Positions 1 to 27,239 of a DNA stretch of 46,468 bases are shown here, piece by piece (within the stretch, counting starts at the first letter, position 1; every line of letters starts with the position of its first letter). Position numbers and translations under genes: made by a program. A model generated the notes under the pieces. It worked only from the letters and a program-made list of their open reading frames with translations. It was not told the DNA's origin and ran no database searches. The DNA comes from Chloroflexota bacterium (GTDB lineage Bacteria > Chloroflexota > Anaerolineae > UBA1429): the NCBI GenBank assembly GCA_019873625.1, contig JAIOAW010000020.1, positions 1-46,468 on the forward strand, in the 5' to 3' direction.

Positions 1-251
1 AGGGAGGCCGGCAGGCCTCCCTGTGGCCGGGCGGGGGGATTCGCTGACGTGCAGGTAAGGCGCCTTTCGGCGCCTGCGGGCCGGGAGGCCCGCGCTCCAT
101 ATGGCCCTCACCCTAACCCTCTCCCACGCCAGTGGGAGAGGGAATCGGAGCGCGAGGCTCCCGCCTCGCGAGGGAGGCCTGCCGGCCTCCCTGTGACCGG
201 GCGGGGGATTCGCTGACGTGCAGGTAAGGCGCCTTTCGGCGCCTGCGGGCC
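1..251. repeat. Mosaic of short hairpin modules, with an 82-bp unit present twice
   Basis: No gene is seen here. An approximately 82-bp unit occurs at 1-82 and again at 171-251, differing by one G in a G-run and a few substitutions. The block is built of perfect inverted repeats, nearly all with a 4-base loop: 1-22 (9-bp arms, loop GGCA), 58-75 (7-bp arms, loop TTTC), 76-93 (7-bp arms, loop GGGA), 117-142 (11-bp arms, loop GCCA), 151-170 (8-bp arms, loop TCCC) and 171-192 (9-bp arms, loop TGCC). Related modules recur at 15743-15927 and 42513-42655. This looks like a REP-like intergenic repeat family. The function is unknown. Confidence 0.85.
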
Positions 252-316
252 GTGCATAACCCCTGCTTTGATAGCCCTCTGCGACCTTCTGATAGGTTTT
301 GAGAGTTCGCCAGGCC

Positions 317-354
317 TATAATGGGCGTTGTTCCTTTAGAACGCACGCAGGAGG
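317..354 (+). promoter_or_regulatory. Probable -10 box and ribosome site of the mevalonate operon
   Basis: TATAAT lies at 317-322 and AGGAGG at 349-354, followed by a GTG at 360. No good -35 sits 16-18 bp upstream of the -10 box, so the promoter call is moderate. The -10 box runs into the ATG at 321, so that ATG would lie upstream of, or at, the transcription start. This supports the GTG at 360 as the true start. Confidence 0.5.
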
Positions 355-359
355 TTGCC

Positions 360-1645
360 GTGCCGAGTTCGCGGCTGCAAGGGTTCTACCAACTTTCACC
401 GGCCGAACGGGCGCGCCGCGTGGCCGAGTTTGCCAACTTGAGCGAAGAAGAGGCGGCCTTGCTCGCCTCCGAATCGCCCCTCACGCTCCAGCAGGCCGAT
501 CGTATGATTGAGAATGTGGTCGGCGTATACGGCCTGCCCTTGGCCATCGCCACAAATTTCGTCATCAACGAGCGCGACTATCTCATCCCGATGGTCGTCG
601 AGGAGCCTTCGGTGGTGGCCGGGCTGAGTTACGCCGCGCGGTTGGTGCGCGCGGGGGGCGGGTTCCATGCCCTGGCCGACGCCCCTGAGATGATCGGCCA
701 GATTCAGGTGCTCGATGTGCCCAACCCCGCCGCCGCGCGCCTACGCCTCCTGGCCGCTGAGAAGGAACTCCTGGAGCGCGCCAACGCTTGTGACCCCGTG
801 CTCACCGCCCTAGGCGGGGGGGCACGCGCTTTGCAGGTGCGCCTGGCCGAAAGCCCTGTGGGCACGATGCTCATCGTCCACCTTATTATGGATGTGCGCG
901 ATGCGATGGGCGCGAATGCGGTGAACACCGCGGTGGAGGCCCTGGCCCCGCACGTCGAACGCCTCACCGGCGGGCGCGCCCTGTTGCGCATCGTGTCGAA
1001 CCTCGCCGATCGGCGGCTGGCCCGCGCTTGGGGCGTGGTGCCCAAAGAGGAACTCGCCCTCGAAGGCCTTTCGCCGGAGGAGGGCGTCCAGCGCATTTTA
1101 GAGGCGCACGCCTTCGCCGAGGCCGACCCCTACCGCGCCGCCACGCACAACAAGGGCATTATGAATGGGGTTGACGCCGTGGCCCTCGCCACGGGGAACG
1201 ATTGGCGCGCCATCGAGGCCGGGGCGCATGCCTACGCCGCGCGCAGCGGCCGCTATAAGCCGCTCACGGCGTGGGAGCGGGATGCGCAAGGCAACCTGGT
1301 GGGGAGCATCGAACTGCCGATGGCGGCGGGCATCTTCGGGGGGGCCACCCGGGCGCACCCCCAGGCAAGGCTAGCCATCAAGATTTTGGGCGTGCGCACG
1401 GCCCAGCAGTTCGCCGAGGTGATGGCCGCCGTGGGCCTGGCTCAGAACCTGGCCGCCCTGCGCGCTCTGGCGATGGAGGGCATCCAGCGAGGGCATATGA
1501 AATTGCATGCCCGCCAAGTGGCGATGGCCGCCGGCGCCATTGGCGAGGAGGTTGAGGCGGTGGTCGAGCGGATGCTCGCCGAAGGCGCAGTGCGCTCCGA
1601 CCGCGCGGCGGAGATCCTTGCCGCCCTGCGGCGGGAGGGGCACCG

Positions 1646-1649
<4 letters not shown>
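360..1649 (+). CDS. mvaA: Hydroxymethylglutaryl-CoA reductase, class II
   Basis: Converts HMG-CoA to mevalonate, the committed step of the mevalonate route to isoprenoids. The 429-residue length fits class II (Pseudomonas mevalonii-like) enzymes. Visible signatures are [17 protein letters not shown] near residues 51-67, the EEPSVVA motif at 81-87 with the catalytic Glu, DAMGAN, the NKGIMNG segment with the catalytic Lys, GNDWRA with the catalytic Asp, and GHMKLHARQ near the C-terminus with the catalytic His. The GTG start at 360 is chosen over ATG 321 because AGGAGG precedes it by 5 bases and the -10 box overlaps 321. The stop overlaps the next start by 4 bases (ATGA), so translation is probably coupled. 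Class II enzymes may use NADH or NADPH. The direction (synthesis) is inferred from the three genes that follow. Confidence 0.95.
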
Positions 1650-2701
<1,052 letters not shown>

Positions 2702-8148: not shown

Positions 8149-9042
8149 GTGAACGAGGCCAATCCTCGCCCGACGATTCTCGATGTGCTCAAGCGGCACG
8201 GGTTCTCCATCCTTTTGGGGGTAAGCGTGCTCGTCCTTATCATCGCCATCGTTTTCATCGCCACGCCCACGTTGGGCCAGCCCTGGGCGCGCGCCGCCGT
8301 GCCCACGCTCGGGGTGCGGCCCACGCGCACGGCCACCCCCACGGCCACGCCGCTCCCGCCGACGCCCACGCCTATCCCGCCCACAGCCACGGCGACACCC
8401 GTGCCCCCCACGGCCACGCCCATCCCGCCGACGCCGACCCCGCTCCCCCCTACGGAGACGCCGCTCCCCCCCACGGCCACGCCCGCGCCCCCCACGCCCA
8501 CGCGTGTGCCGCCTACGCCCACCCGTCGGCCCCCCACGGCCACGCCCGTGCCTGTAACGATCCTCTTCCAGGTGCCCATTGATAACGGCGAGTGGGGCAA
8601 GGAGTTCATCTACGTCAAGAACGAGGAGCCAATCTACGTGGTGGGGAGCGATGGCCACCGCTACCGCGCCGAGTTGGGGTTCCTCTCCTCGCCGAGCGCC
8701 CTGCAAAAGACGCAAGAGTTCTGGAGTTATGCGCGCCTGGGAGGCGCCAATTGGAAGATGATCCTCGAGACGCGCGCCTCGGTGCAGTGGGTTTCTTGCA
8801 CCGACAAGATGAACGTCTGCTCAGAAGCAGCCTGGTCTAACCCGCAGGCGAGCGTCACGATCAAGGTCTATCTCAAGCCGCACGTTTGGCAGGCCCTGCT
8901 CAACGATTATCTCGCCGGGGGTTGGCAGGCCACCACGCGCAACGCCTATTATGGGGAGGTGCAGAACGCCATCTTTTACCCCCTCGTCAAGGCGGCGCCG
9001 GATGCGCCCTGCGTAGGGTTCCAATTCACGCGGGTAGATTAG
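8149..9042 (+). CDS. Membrane-anchored protein with Thr-Pro linker and unknown outer domain
   Basis: A 297-residue protein that I do not recognise by family. A short cytoplasmic head is followed by one membrane segment at about residues 21-42 ([18 protein letters not shown]). A long linker of Thr-Pro repeats covers about residues 58-138, with units such as [14 protein letters not shown] compact C-terminal domain of about 155 residues follows, rich in Trp and Tyr, with cysteines ([19 protein letters not shown]) that could form disulfides outside the membrane. It is transcribed alone from its own promoter and ends at a strong hairpin facing pckG. The linker is typical of Chloroflexota cell-surface proteins. 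Confidence 0.8.
8317..8556 (+). repeat. Degenerate repeats coding the Thr-Pro linker
   Basis: About 240 bases of imperfect repeats of CCSACGCC-type units inside the membrane-protein gene, encoding (P)TPxPPTxTP steps. Unit length varies and the period follows codons, so this is a coding low-complexity linker and not a CRISPR or satellite array. Confidence 0.85.
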
Positions 9043-11203: not shown

Positions 11204-11239
11204 AAAGGCCCTAAAGGCTTGGGGGCCTTTAGGGCCTTT
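11204..11239. terminator. Perfect 15-bp hairpin after the DUF5320 operon
   Basis: Arms 11204-11218 and 11225-11239 with a 6-base loop, just downstream of the DUF5320 stop on the minus strand. No long T-run follows, so it may end transcripts weakly or protect the 3' end. It also insulates the upstream promoter of pckG. Confidence 0.65.
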
Positions 11240-11273: not shown

Positions 11274-11600
11274 TCATCCCTCTTCGGGAGGCTCGGGCTT
11301 CTGACGGAGCGCCTTCAATTGGCTCTCGAGCGCTTGCAGCCTTTCGCGAAGGAAGGCCGCCTGTTCCTCCAAAAAGGCGGCTTGCTCCTCGGGCGTCGGC
11401 GCGCAGGGCGCGCCAAGCCGCGCCCAGCCAGGGAGGCCCGTCGCGCGGTACCAGTAGCGGAACCCTCGACCGTAGCCCCCTAGGCAAAACCCCCAGGCCG
11501 GGTTCATATAGCCCGGCACGGTGTAGCCGGCGCAGTAACCAGCCCCGCGCCCCGTCATCGGCCCCCAATTCCGAGGCCCCATCCTATTCCCAAATGGCAT
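11274..11600 (-). CDS. DUF5320 domain protein
   Basis: A 108-residue small protein. The N-terminal half is rich in Gly, Met, Pro and aromatic residues (MPFGNRMGPRNWGPMTGRG, then GYC and GFC segments). The C-terminal third is a predicted coiled coil with heptad-like EEQAAFLEEQAAFLRER. This matches the DUF5320 pattern, whose genes commonly sit beside NifX/NifB-like iron-molybdenum cofactor proteins, as here. The function is unknown. The ATG at 11600 has AGGAGGT at 11609-11615, so a longer upstream reading is not needed. It is the last gene of the PadR operon. Confidence 0.8.
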   Translation of the reverse strand: MPFGNRMGPRNWGPMTGRGAGYCAGYTVPGYMNPAWGFCLGGYGRGFRYWYRATGLPGWARLGAPCAPTPEEQAAFLEEQAAFLRERLQALESQLKALRQKPEPPEEG

Positions 11601-11626
11601 ACGTCTTACCTCCTGTGTTTGTGGCC

Positions 11627-11740
11627 TTACCAGCGGCCACGGCCGCCCCAGCGGCGCCCGCGCCACCTCCATAGGGAGCGCGGCCAGCAGAAGAGCCGTG
11701 GTCGCAAGAGACGCCGAAAAATCCTTCTCCCAAGGAACAT
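11627..11740 (-). CDS. 37-residue Arg/Trp-rich peptide
   Basis: A short open frame between the NifX-like gene and the DUF5320 gene, with a strong AAGGAGGG site 5 bases before the ATG at 11740 and a TAA stop at 11627, just ahead of the ribosome site of the next gene. The peptide begins MFLGRRIFRRLLRPRLF and ends in RWRGRRWGGRGRW. By my count it has 15 Arg and 6 Trp, and no acidic residue. It is no close match to a family I know. The spacing and ribosome site suggest real translation in the operon. The arginine richness could also come by chance from GC-rich DNA, so this is a candidate. Confidence 0.5.
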   Translation of the reverse strand: MFLGRRIFRRLLRPRLFCWPRSLWRWRGRRWGGRGRW

Positions 11741-11776
11741 ACTTCCCTCCTTATCGCGGGGCACCCCGCGAGACCG

Positions 11777-12172
11777 CTAATGTAGATATTCCGGGTGATC
11801 CTCCAGGCGGCCATCGAGATAGGCCTGCAAGGCGGCCTCTATCTCGGCCTCCTCCGTGATGATGGGCGTAATCCCAAACTCGCGCATCCCTCGATAGGCG
11901 CCATACCCCATTCCTCGGCAAACCAGCACTTGGCAATCTTGGATGGCGGCGGCCATGGCGGCATGGCGGGTTTGGCTAGCGGCGTCCATCCCATGGGGGG
12001 CATTGGGCGAGGCGGGCGCCTCTTGGGCGGCAAACTGGGCATGCCCCAGTTTGGGCCGCAGTTCGCGCGAAACGATTCGGCCCTCCTCCACGGTGAACAC
12101 GGCATAGTAGCGCGCCCGGCCGAAATGCGCGCTGATGGTGCGGTCGTCATCGGTGATAAAGGCGATTTTCAT
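11777..12172 (-). CDS. Dinitrogenase iron-molybdenum cofactor (NifX/NifB-like) family protein
   Basis: A 131-residue protein of the NifX/NafY fold family. It opens MKIAFITDDDRTISAHFG, with the typical HFG motif at residues 16-18, and later has QDCQVLVCRGMGYGAYRGM and GITPIITEEAEIEAAL. Family members bind iron-sulfur or iron-molybdenum precursors. Many copies outside nitrogen fixers have unknown roles in metal-cluster handling. No nif gene is in the window, so nitrogen fixation is not implied. The start overlaps the PadR stop by 4 bases (ATGA), so the two are translationally coupled. Confidence 0.88.
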   Translation of the reverse strand: MKIAFITDDDRTISAHFGRARYYAVFTVEEGRIVSRELRPKLGHAQFAAQEAPASPNAPHGMDAASQTRHAAMAAAIQDCQVLVCRGMGYGAYRGMREFGITPIITEEAEIEAALQAYLDGRLEDHPEYLH

Positions 12173-12609
12173 CGTGCATCTCCTTCCGAAAAGCGTGTAG
12201 GCGAGCCATCCGGCTCGTTGTGAGACCGCGTATGGGCGTCATAGGCCTCCAAGAACTGCCGCAGGAGGCGTTCCGTAGCGCGCAGGTCTTCGATCCAGGC
12301 GCGCAAGTAGGCATCGCCTGCCTCAGTCAATGCGTAGATGCGGCGGGGCGGCCCCGCGCTGCCCTCCGCCTCCACCCGAGAGGTAACCATCCCCAGGGCC
12401 TCGAGGTGGTATAGGGCGCGATAGATCGCGCTTACATCCACGGGATAATCTCCCAGGCCCAGGGCCTGAAGCCCCTCCGCCAGCCCATAGCCGTGGGCCG
12501 GCCCTTGATGGAGGAGCAAGAGCACCGCCGGCTCGATAAAGCGCCGAATGCGCCCCGGCCGGCCGCCGGCCCATCCATCCCCCCGATATCTCGCCCGGCA
12601 AGGCGGCAT
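12169..12609 (-). CDS. PadR-family transcriptional regulator
   Basis: A 146-residue winged-helix regulator. The DNA-binding domain covers about residues 22-100: FIEPAVLLLLHQGPAHGYGL (helix 1), DVSAIYRALYHLEALGMV (recognition helix region) and RRIYALTEAG (wing). A C-terminal dimer helix pair follows (AWIEDLRATERLLRQFLEAY). ATG 12609 is preceded by AGGAGG. A promoter with a 21-bp palindrome over the transcription start lies directly upstream, which suggests that it represses its own operon (PadR, NifX-like, peptide, DUF5320). The signal it senses is unknown. Confidence 0.9.
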   Translation of the reverse strand: MPPCRARYRGDGWAGGRPGRIRRFIEPAVLLLLHQGPAHGYGLAEGLQALGLGDYPVDVSAIYRALYHLEALGMVTSRVEAEGSAGPPRRIYALTEAGDAYLRAWIEDLRATERLLRQFLEAYDAHTRSHNEPDGSPTRFSEGDAR

Positions 12610-12618
12610 CCCTTCCTC

Positions 12619-12653
12619 CTATTTGCGATAGACTATTTGTTAACTGCAAATAG
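12619..12653 (-). promoter_or_regulatory. Probable PadR operator: CTATTTG palindrome plus third half-site
   Basis: CTATTTG (12633-12639) and CAAATAG (12647-12653) are perfect 7-bp arms around a 7-base TTAACTG centre. A third CTATTTG lies at 12619-12625, spaced 14 bp in direct orientation. The palindrome touches the -10 box and covers the expected transcription start. The third half-site abuts the ribosome site. Confidence 0.7.
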
Positions 12654-12682
12654 ATAATAGCACATAGCGGCGAGCCTGTCAA
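12654..12682 (-). promoter_or_regulatory. PadR operon promoter TTGACA - 17 bp - TATTAT
   Basis: On the minus strand, TTGACA (12677-12682), a 17-bp spacer and TATTAT (12654-12659), immediately next to the palindromic operator. Confidence 0.85.
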
Positions 12683-12783: not shown

Positions 12784-12789
12784 AGGCAT

Positions 12790-13040
12790 AACGACTGCGA
12801 ACAGGAGGAGTAAGCGGAGCGCTTGCCGATAGAGAAGAGGGGCCATAGGCTGGAAGCCCCTCGCGGTGGGCCCCGCCGAAGGTCGCCTGGGAGTCGGCCG
12901 GCTGAACGGCAAGTAAGCCGGCTCGGGTGCGCCCGTTATCGCGCCCAGAGCGCGCCAAGGCTCGCAAGGCCTTGGCGAAGTGGAGTGGTACCGCGGAAGG
13001 TCGCCCTTTCGTCTCCAAGACGGAAGGGCGGTTTCTATTT
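12790..13040 (+). ncRNA. T-box leader of valS, specifier GTC (Val)
   Basis: A cis-acting RNA that reads uncharged tRNA-Val and controls valS transcription. The T-box core GTGGTACCGCGG lies at 12985-12996. Its TGGT (12986-12989) would pair with an ACCA tRNA end (discriminator A, as in tRNA-Val). The likely specifier is GTC at 12882-12884, in the context CGAAGGTCGCC, which matches the position of ATC in the ileS leader of this window. A terminator stem lies at 13002-13030, and the antiterminator would include the T-box core. Stem boundaries further upstream are approximate. Confidence 0.9.
13002..13040 (+). terminator. T-box terminator of valS
   Basis: 13-bp stem (arms 13002-13014 and 13018-13030, one G-T pair, 3-base loop) followed by the T-rich stretch GTTTCTATTT at 13031-13040. 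It overlaps the 3' side of the T-box fold, as expected for transcription attenuation. Confidence 0.85.
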
Positions 13041-25119: not shown

Positions 25120-25959
25120 TTATCCAAACCTCCCCGTGATGTACTCTTCTGTTCGCCGGTCTTTGGGGTTGGTAAAGACTTCGTCGGTCGGCCCATACTC
25201 CACGAGATAGCCCGCCCGATCCTCATCCATCATCAAAAAGGCCGTATAGTCGGAAACGCGCGCCGCCTGCTGCATATTATGCGTGACGATGATGATGGTA
25301 TAGTTTTTCACCAACTCGTGCATCAGGTCCTCGATTTTGAGCGTGGCGATGGGGTCCAAGGCGGAGGCCGGCTCGTCCATCAAAATGATCTCCGGCCTAA
25401 TCGCAATGGCACGGGCGATGCATAGGCGCTGTTGTTGGCCGCCGGAAAGCGCCAAGGCGCTCTGGCGGAGTTTGTCTTTCACCTCGTCCCACAAGGCGGC
25501 CTGCCTTAGCGACTGTTCTACGAGGTCATCCATATTCCCTCGGAAGCCGTTGATACGCGCTGCCCAAGCGATGTTGTCATAGACGCTTTTGGGGAAGGGA
25601 TTGGGTTTTTGAAACACCATCCCGATCCGCCGCCGCACTTCCACGGGATCCACGCCCGGCGCATAGATGTTGCACCCCTCAAAAATGACCTCTCCCTCGG
25701 TTCGGCTACCGGGGATGAGATCGTTCATACGGTTCAGGGCGCGCAAAAAAGTGCTCTTGCCGCAACCCGAAGGGCCGATGAGGGCAGTGATCTTTTGGCG
25801 CTGGATTTTGAGCGATACGTCTTTTACTGCGCGAAACGCGCCATAATACACGCTGAGTTGACGCGCCTCCAGGGCGCAGTCGCTCTCACACCGCGCGGCA
25901 GCGAGCGCTTGGACAGGAGCGAGCCTCGCTGTTGCGGTGAGCACATGGATTGCGGTCAT
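25120..25959 (-). CDS. pstB: Phosphate ABC transporter ATP-binding protein
   Basis: The ATPase of the high-affinity phosphate importer. It has 279 residues, about 25 more than usual, because of an N-terminal extension (residues 1-28) before the ABC domain. Walker A is GPSGCGKST at 62-70, the signature is LSGGQQQRL, Walker B is [11 protein letters not shown], and the H-loop is [11 protein letters not shown] 25959 follows AGGAGGG and overlaps the pstA stop by 4 bases (ATGA). It is the last gene of the operon; a phoU gene, often next, is absent, and the T-box promoter of ileS follows. Confidence 0.97.
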
Positions 25960-27239
25960 CCTTCCCTCCTTTTGCTGCGATAACGGTTGCGCAGGATGAT
26001 GGCCACGGCGTTGAACGCTAAAAGCAAGACGAGTAGCACGATGATCGCGGCTGCTGCAAGGTTGCGGAAAAGGTCTTGAGGGCGTGCCGTCCATTGGTAG
26101 ATTTGTATTGGCAAACTAGTGAATTTGGAAAACGGCCCCGTGGGGTCATGGGCGATGAACGTCGAGGCCCCTACCACCACGAGAGGGGCGGTTTCGCCCA
26201 TCGCGCGAGACATAGCGAAAATCGTGCCCGTGAGGATGCCCGGCAACGCGCTGGGCAACACGTGGTGCCAGATCGTCTGCCAGTGGGTAGCCCCCACGGC
26301 ATAACTTGCCTCGCGCAGTGAGCGCGGCACAGCGCGGATGGCCTCTTGGGCATTGATGATGATGAGCGGGAGGATGAGGAGAGCCAGCGTCAACGAGGCC
26401 GAAATAACGGTGCGGCCGTTGGCGGTGGTGGGGTCACTCAACCCAAAGATCGCGCCGCTCGTGACGGGTTCCAACCCCCGCACAAAGATCGCTAACCCCA
26501 ACATACCATAGATAATCGAAGGCACCCCTGCCAGATTGTTGATGTTCGTCTGGATGAGGCGATTCAGGGGATTATCCGCCGCATATTCTTCGAGATAGAT
26601 GGCCGCCCCTACGCCCACCGGAAAGGCCACGAGGATGGTCAGCCCTACGATCCAGAGGGAACCAAGCATCGCCGTGCGCACCCCGGCCTTGGCAGGGTTG
26701 GCGGATTGGGGGGCGCGCAAGAATTGGGGGTTGATCCAGGCGCGGAATTGGAGCCTAGCGCCTGGGAATGTTTCCACGACTTCTTGATGAATAGCCGAGC
26801 GCCGCAAAAGGGAATCGGCCAGAGGCCAACTACGGAGGATTTCCGGGTTGATGACGCGCTCTTCGACGAGTTGATAGACGTCTTCACGGCTGCGCACCGA
26901 GAAGGGCTTTTCGCTTTCCAAGCGCCGCATCACCCCTTTGGAGATATAGGCCTCCAGAATGGTGATCAACTGCTCTTTAGAGAGTTCCTCGAGGGGCGTG
27001 CCCTCTATGGCAAGCGCCTCCGGCTCGACTTGGTTCCGAACCGCAACCCAACCGAAAGATTGGTTGATGATGTTATATAATAGCGCCGTCAAAGCGAGGA
27101 TGCTGACCAACGTCGCCGCCTGAAAGATCGTCAGCCAAAGCGTACCCTTCTTGTGGCGGGCGGCCATATGGCTGCGAAAGGAATCGCCTTCTGGCAGGTA
27201 ACGGACGGTGGGCGCTGAGGGTGCCGAAAGGGTGTTCAT
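25956..27239 (-). CDS. pstA: Phosphate ABC transporter permease, with long outer insert
   Basis: Membrane subunit of the Pst importer. The protein has 427 residues against about 280-300 in common PstA. The extra length is a segment of about 130 residues between the first membrane helix (about 38-60) and the second (about 190), predicted to lie outside the membrane ([19 protein letters not shown] and following). The core has the permease signature [20 protein letters not shown] and about five further membrane helices. ATG 27239 has GGGAGGTG upstream and overlaps the pstC stop (ATGA). Confidence 0.95.

Follow-up and report, generated by a model that had tools for sequence, protein, structure and literature searches.

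Organization of the operon

Four genes are arranged in tandem on the minus strand of the analyzed window, a contig of 46,468 nucleotides from the genome of an Anaerolineae bacterium of the phylum Chloroflexota. They encode a PadR-family repressor of 146 aa (12169..12609), a NifX-like protein of 131 aa (11777..12172) belonging to a subfamily here called NifX-A, a 37-aa cationic peptide, MFLGRR...GRGRW (11627..11740), and a DUF5320 protein of 108 aa (11274..11600). The PadR and NifX-like genes overlap by 4 nt, and a good ribosome site precedes each of the four starts, in agreement with the compact PadR - NifX-like - peptide - DUF5320 operon described in the first-pass annotation. Profile scores exceed the respective cut-offs for PadR (PF03551, 55.7 bits against 27, E 4.9e-15), for the NifX-like protein (PF02579, 63.6 bits against 26.3, E 2.1e-17) and for DUF5320 (PF17253, 87.5 bits against 27, E 1.5e-24), the last match covering model positions 1-99 of 99.

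A strong hairpin located 3' of the DUF5320 gene on the same strand (11204..11239), with 15/15 paired arms and a fold z of -5.0, is the probable end of the operon; its T run is short and weak. A small hairpin between the NifX-like and peptide genes was discarded, being no stronger than shuffled sequences (z -0.25). On the opposite side of the operon, a T-box leader (12788-13019, plus strand; RF00230, above the gathering score) is found directly 5' of a valyl-tRNA synthetase gene, the two being transcribed away from the PadR operon. Elsewhere in the window, a plus-strand gene (8149-9042) encodes a protein of 297 aa that contains a hydrophobic segment and a long, repeat-bearing linker rich in Pro and Thr.

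Promoter and operator

Upstream of PadR, a near-consensus promoter is found on the minus strand (12654..12682), composed of TTGACA (12682-12677), a 17-bp spacer and TATTAT (12659-12654). It is overlapped by a predicted PadR operator of 49 bp (12619..12667), whose four half-sites, CTATGTGC, CTATTTG, CAAATAG and GCAAATAG, are symmetric about 12643 and cover both the -10 element and the start point. The regulator with its own operator, reported earlier from the sequence, is thus confirmed, and the placement of the operator suggests that PadR represses the operon.

Both elements recur. A TTGACA-N17-TATAAT-like promoter is located at the equivalent place before PadR in many relatives, and in one of them (L086) the equivalent operator element is likewise a 49-bp palindrome. 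The pattern CTATTTG-N7-CAAATAG was searched in 0.74 Mb, corresponding to the window and 80 related loci: the 8 sites that have no more than one mismatch all fall within 120 bp upstream of a PadR or NifX gene; of those with two mismatches, five are near such genes and two elsewhere. A scan with a 6-bp spacer returned no sites, the actual spacer being 7 bp. Profile and pattern searches were also run on the whole genome to which the window belongs, where the window operator is the sole perfect site. In two genomes the operator, with no mismatch (G518) or two mismatches (G491), directly precedes NifX-A, the PadR relative being on another contig; this links the operator to NifX irrespective of whether PadR is adjacent.

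Linkage in other genomes

Nine genomes of the same family contain NifX-A: PadR lies within 50 bp of it in seven, and the operator stands directly before it in the remaining two. Most genomes, of about 3 Mb, contain one or two such PadR genes, and we estimate that a PadR gene would fall at such a distance by chance well below 1% of the time. The same-family counts argue against a chance association, and both the operator and the PadR-NifX linkage are strongly supported.

Within the class, NifX-A relatives were detected in 72 of 249 genomes. Scanning of named genomes yielded 80 loci, nearly all titled Chloroflexota, many of them being the same contigs. Within 3 kb of 133 distinct genes, PadR was found in 36 cases, DUF5320 in 33, a second NifX in 37 and a profile match to MinD, Mrp or ferredoxin in 61, all of these figures being lower bounds because of contig ends. 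Each of the seven loci of the class in which DUF5320 scores above its cut-off has PadR in the vicinity. The linkage of PadR with the NifX-like and DUF5320 genes, on which the proposal of a common unit depended, is thus observed in other genomes.

Two layouts are seen: either PadR is the first gene of the operon, or a DUF5320-PadR pair is divergent from NifX-A, NifX-B (the second NifX-like protein) and ATPases, as in the cultured species Ornatilinea apprima (L187). When the NifX-A tree is marked for PadR genes lying within 2.5 kb, the linkage is seen in separate branches and requires at least 12 changes, in a tree where many forks are poorly resolved. Outside the class, three of the loci read (G057, G138 and G256) contain DUF5320, NifX and ATPases and no PadR, which is present in a fourth (G089); the DUF5320-NifX-ATPase core thus looks wider than PadR control. 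A literature search combining PadR with the dinitrogenase-cofactor name returned one proteome paper, in which each is mentioned once. The conserved operator provides a handle on the signal controlling such loci in Anaerolineae, including O. apprima.

PadR regulators commonly respond to small hydrophobic compounds, and the 37-aa peptide is cationic and Trp-rich; these features would suit a stress or drug-response unit, in which the NifX-like and DUF5320 proteins would serve in damage repair or in sequestration of toxic compounds. We regard this as very improbable, since the recurring neighborhood contains no transporter, efflux or detoxification gene and the recurring partners are Fe-S proteins. 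The earlier suggestion of antibiotic stress found nothing pointing to it.

The larger locus of relatives

In relatives, these genes are part of a larger locus, containing PadR, Mrp, ferredoxin-MinD ATPases, two NifX-like proteins, DUF5320, ferredoxin and radical SAM genes. In one genome (G304, L104) PadR is followed, in this order, by Mrp (PF01883+PF10609), NifX-A, a Gly/Arg/Trp protein of 86 aa, a weak match to DUF5320, NifX-B, ferredoxin, radical SAM, a Fur-like gene and ferredoxin-ATPases. Inspection by eye revealed an FmdE-like protein near a relative's locus (L086, 910-1467, minus strand), and a FeoB-like transporter (223-2214, minus strand) and the Fur-like regulator (8499-8951, plus strand) in L104; such neighbors are in keeping with an iron theme.

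In the genome of the window (2.76 Mb, 97.6% complete), the NifX-like gene is the single PF02579 gene by profile search, and neither NifX-B nor a ferredoxin-MinD pair was found. The ATPases found in it are ParA/Soj, MinD, CooC-like, tyrosine-kinase-type, ArsA-like and Ffh proteins and one Mrp, and no ferredoxin insert is present among them; a sub-threshold ATPase match on another contig (C5) yielded no candidate frame. The sole Mrp, encoded on contig C2, is unlinked to the operon and 64% identical to the Mrp facing PadR in another genome (G482). Lack of the ferredoxin-MinD pair, the lone PF02579 gene and the unlinked Mrp indicate that the window operon is probably a reduced descendant of the larger locus, rather than a free-standing conserved four-gene system, as had been proposed.

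Reduction may have gone further, leaving a remnant with little function of its own after loss of the ATPases, Mrp and NifX-B. The gene content just described is compatible with such decay, as is an apparent Mrp N-terminal remnant (MAAEAKIRNVLTQVQDPGLRQSIVG) between NifX-A and DUF5320 in a genome of the same family (G136; L111, 2295-2430), hinting that Mrp was lost there. Within the window, the NifX-like protein sits on a long branch of the NifX-A tree and the N-motif of DUF5320 is altered in the alignment, so that the operon could be a decaying remnant. Nevertheless, all frames are intact, the ribosome sites are good, the promoter is near-consensus and the operator retains its four half-sites; we consider this explanation an unlikely but serious alternative.

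The NifX-like protein

The NifX-A fold model has a mean pLDDT of 87 and matches 15 PDB structures with E<0.001, all of the PF02579 type, including NifX of the NifEN complex, NafY and ORP (2wfb). In an alignment of 12 sequences, down to 43% identity, no variation is seen at H16, H44, H70, D79, C80 or the C-terminal H131; the window protein stops at residue 131, without a tail.

The window protein shares the fold and the PF02579 domain with NifX and NafY, the carriers of nitrogenase cofactors. It differs from them in scoring only 35.8 bits against the NCBIfam nifX equivalog, which requires 112, and in the lack of nif genes in the window. The absence of any nif gene, noted at first reading, holds for the whole genome, where no nitrogenase genes were found and partial NifH-family matches correspond to ParA/Soj, MinD and a CooC-like ATPase. 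The low score and the missing nitrogenase genes led us to discard a nif function.

The presence of ORP among the structural matches raises the alternative that the protein carries a molybdenum-sulfur heterometal cluster, like the Desulfovibrio orange protein whose fold it shares, and that PadR answers to Mo or Cu; the Mrp/MinD-type ATPases of relatives also resemble those of orp operons (PMC6345978, PMC4672049). We consider this unlikely: no molybdate transporter or Mo gene was seen beside the loci, the window operon contains no ATPases, and PF02579 domains bind differing clusters, so that the fold does not give the cargo.

The peptide and the DUF5320 protein

The peptide is rich in Trp, Arg and Gly, with 13 Arg, 8 aromatic residues, 5 Gly and a single Cys, and it lacks acidic residues. 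The 37-aa reading, starting with the ATG at 11740, is preferred to a 45-aa one because an AAGGAGG ribosome site precedes this ATG. No homologs were found by tblastn, all matches being driven by composition; one of them (L105/L230) falls within a DUF5320 protein, in its W/R/G segment. The slot just 3' of NifX-A is, however, occupied by other small basic proteins in several relatives: a group with one Cys and a NPYPYCRFYPWMPRRWW-like motif (L087, L102, L104, L108 and, following a second NifX-A, L101), DUF5320-N proteins whose ends are W/R-rich (L084) and RG-rich proteins with four Cys (L082, L095). Other relatives have Mrp or NifX-B immediately after NifX-A. The expected linkage of the peptide with the other genes thus holds for the slot but not for the sequence. 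The ribosome site and the recurring slot favor a gene over a chance ORF, for which a residual likelihood is left. Proteins of 60-68 aa, which begin with an RG-rich stretch and contain the four-Cys block CVCPxCGxxxPH...CPxCGxxMxRE, recur within or near the loci of relatives (L082, L084, L086, L089, L095, L099, L160, L222, L236); the block may be a metal or Fe-S site.

The DUF5320 protein consists of an N-terminal part rich in Gly, Arg and aromatic residues, a YRATGLPGW block and a C-terminal coiled-coil helix. Apart from a short helix preceding the ATGLPGW block and the long C-terminal one, it is predicted to be disordered, and its model (mean pLDDT 58.6) is poor outside the helix. The two papers found to name DUF5320 are, by their titles and abstracts, not about its function. 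In relatives, NifX-B proteins feature a PF02579 domain followed by a GRGMGRGMG-type sequence and a coiled coil, and in 9 of 15 of them a profile match shows PF17253 to be fused to the PF02579 domain. This fusion corresponds to the architecture described for IssA and IssX, and by this analogy DUF5320 looks like a detachable form of an IssA-like basic tail. Fusion and common neighborhood together give DUF5320 a testable role as basic tail.

The genome contains two DUF5320 matches. A second PadR and DUF5320-like pair is located on contig C23, at about 25521-26214 (L159 5521-6215; L002); its DUF5320-like protein is His/Cys-rich, and its PadR is preceded by a different operator-like palindrome, TATATATGTTTTTGTCATATATA.

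Proposed function

Our best reading, which we hold with about even confidence, is that of a PadR-autorepressed operon for an iron-sulfur or metal-cluster carrier, whose basic, IssA-like tails are made as separate polypeptides. The metal role suggested by the first-pass annotation fits well with the PF02579 domain and with the Fe-S ATPases, ferredoxin and radical SAM genes adjoining it in relatives. The fold assignment derives from a model, while genes, promoter, operator conservation, linkage and the PF02579-PF17253 fusion are read from sequence; from these we infer the repression, the cargo, its storage or transfer, the role of the tails and the inducing signal.

PadR would bind the double dyad that covers its promoter, shutting the operon off, until a signal releases it and the near-consensus promoter drives joint production of the NifX-like carrier, the peptide and DUF5320. 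The NifX-like domain would bind a metal or Fe-S unit, with the conserved His and Cys residues as candidate ligands; DUF5320 and the peptide would provide a basic Gly/Arg/aromatic chain holding anionic material, as the C-terminal tail of IssA may do, and the coiled coil of DUF5320 would provide oligomerization. In relatives, Mrp and the ferredoxin-MinD ATPases would pass clusters on, a step for which the window genome keeps only the unlinked Mrp. Against this reading stand the lack, in the window, of ATPases, NifX-B and a fused tail, and a peptide whose sequence is not conserved.

A bolder version, which we find doubtful, is a "split IssA", namely a particle for the storage or assembly of iron sulfide, formed in trans by the tail-less NifX-like scaffold, the coiled-coil DUF5320 and the cationic 37-aa peptide, and switched by a dedicated PadR that senses the Fe/S state. 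If true, this would be the first function for DUF5320, a mineral-binding tail in detachable form. The wider question touched by the operon is how iron-sulfur material is stored and moved in anaerobes.

Comparison with known systems

As in PadR-autorepressed operons, PadR is the first gene and a palindromic operator spans its own promoter; in contrast with them, the linked genes encode Fe-S or metal-cluster proteins and the operator has four half-sites.

IssA of Pyrococcus furiosus, which stores thioferrate, consists of a PF02579-type (IPR003731) domain and a cationic tail rich in Trp, Gly and Arg, which bears the one Cys of the protein and is the proposed thioferrate binder; a PF02579-type domain and a flexible basic Gly-rich tail are common to IssA and its uncharacterized relatives, IssX (PMC5524996). 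The window operon similarly combines this domain with basic, Gly-rich, disordered sequences bearing Trp and Arg, which form one protein in the NifX-B of relatives, a likeness at the level of the described architecture. It differs in that the domain is tail-less, the tail-like parts are separate genes and control would be by PadR.

With ORP and MrpORP of Desulfovibrio (PMC6345978, PMC3897727) the operon shares a PF02579 protein, a domain that carries an Fe-S cluster in MrpORP (PMC6345978). Mrp and Fe-S ATPases of the MinD type accompany it in the loci of relatives, but not in the window operon, where PadR and a sigma70-type promoter replace the sigma54 activator, and DUF5320 and the peptide are added. 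Lacking both the fused tail and the ATPases, the operon is not assigned to either system; it looks like a reduced form, under repressor control, of the ORP/IssA-type loci known from anaerobes, which build or store iron-sulfur material.
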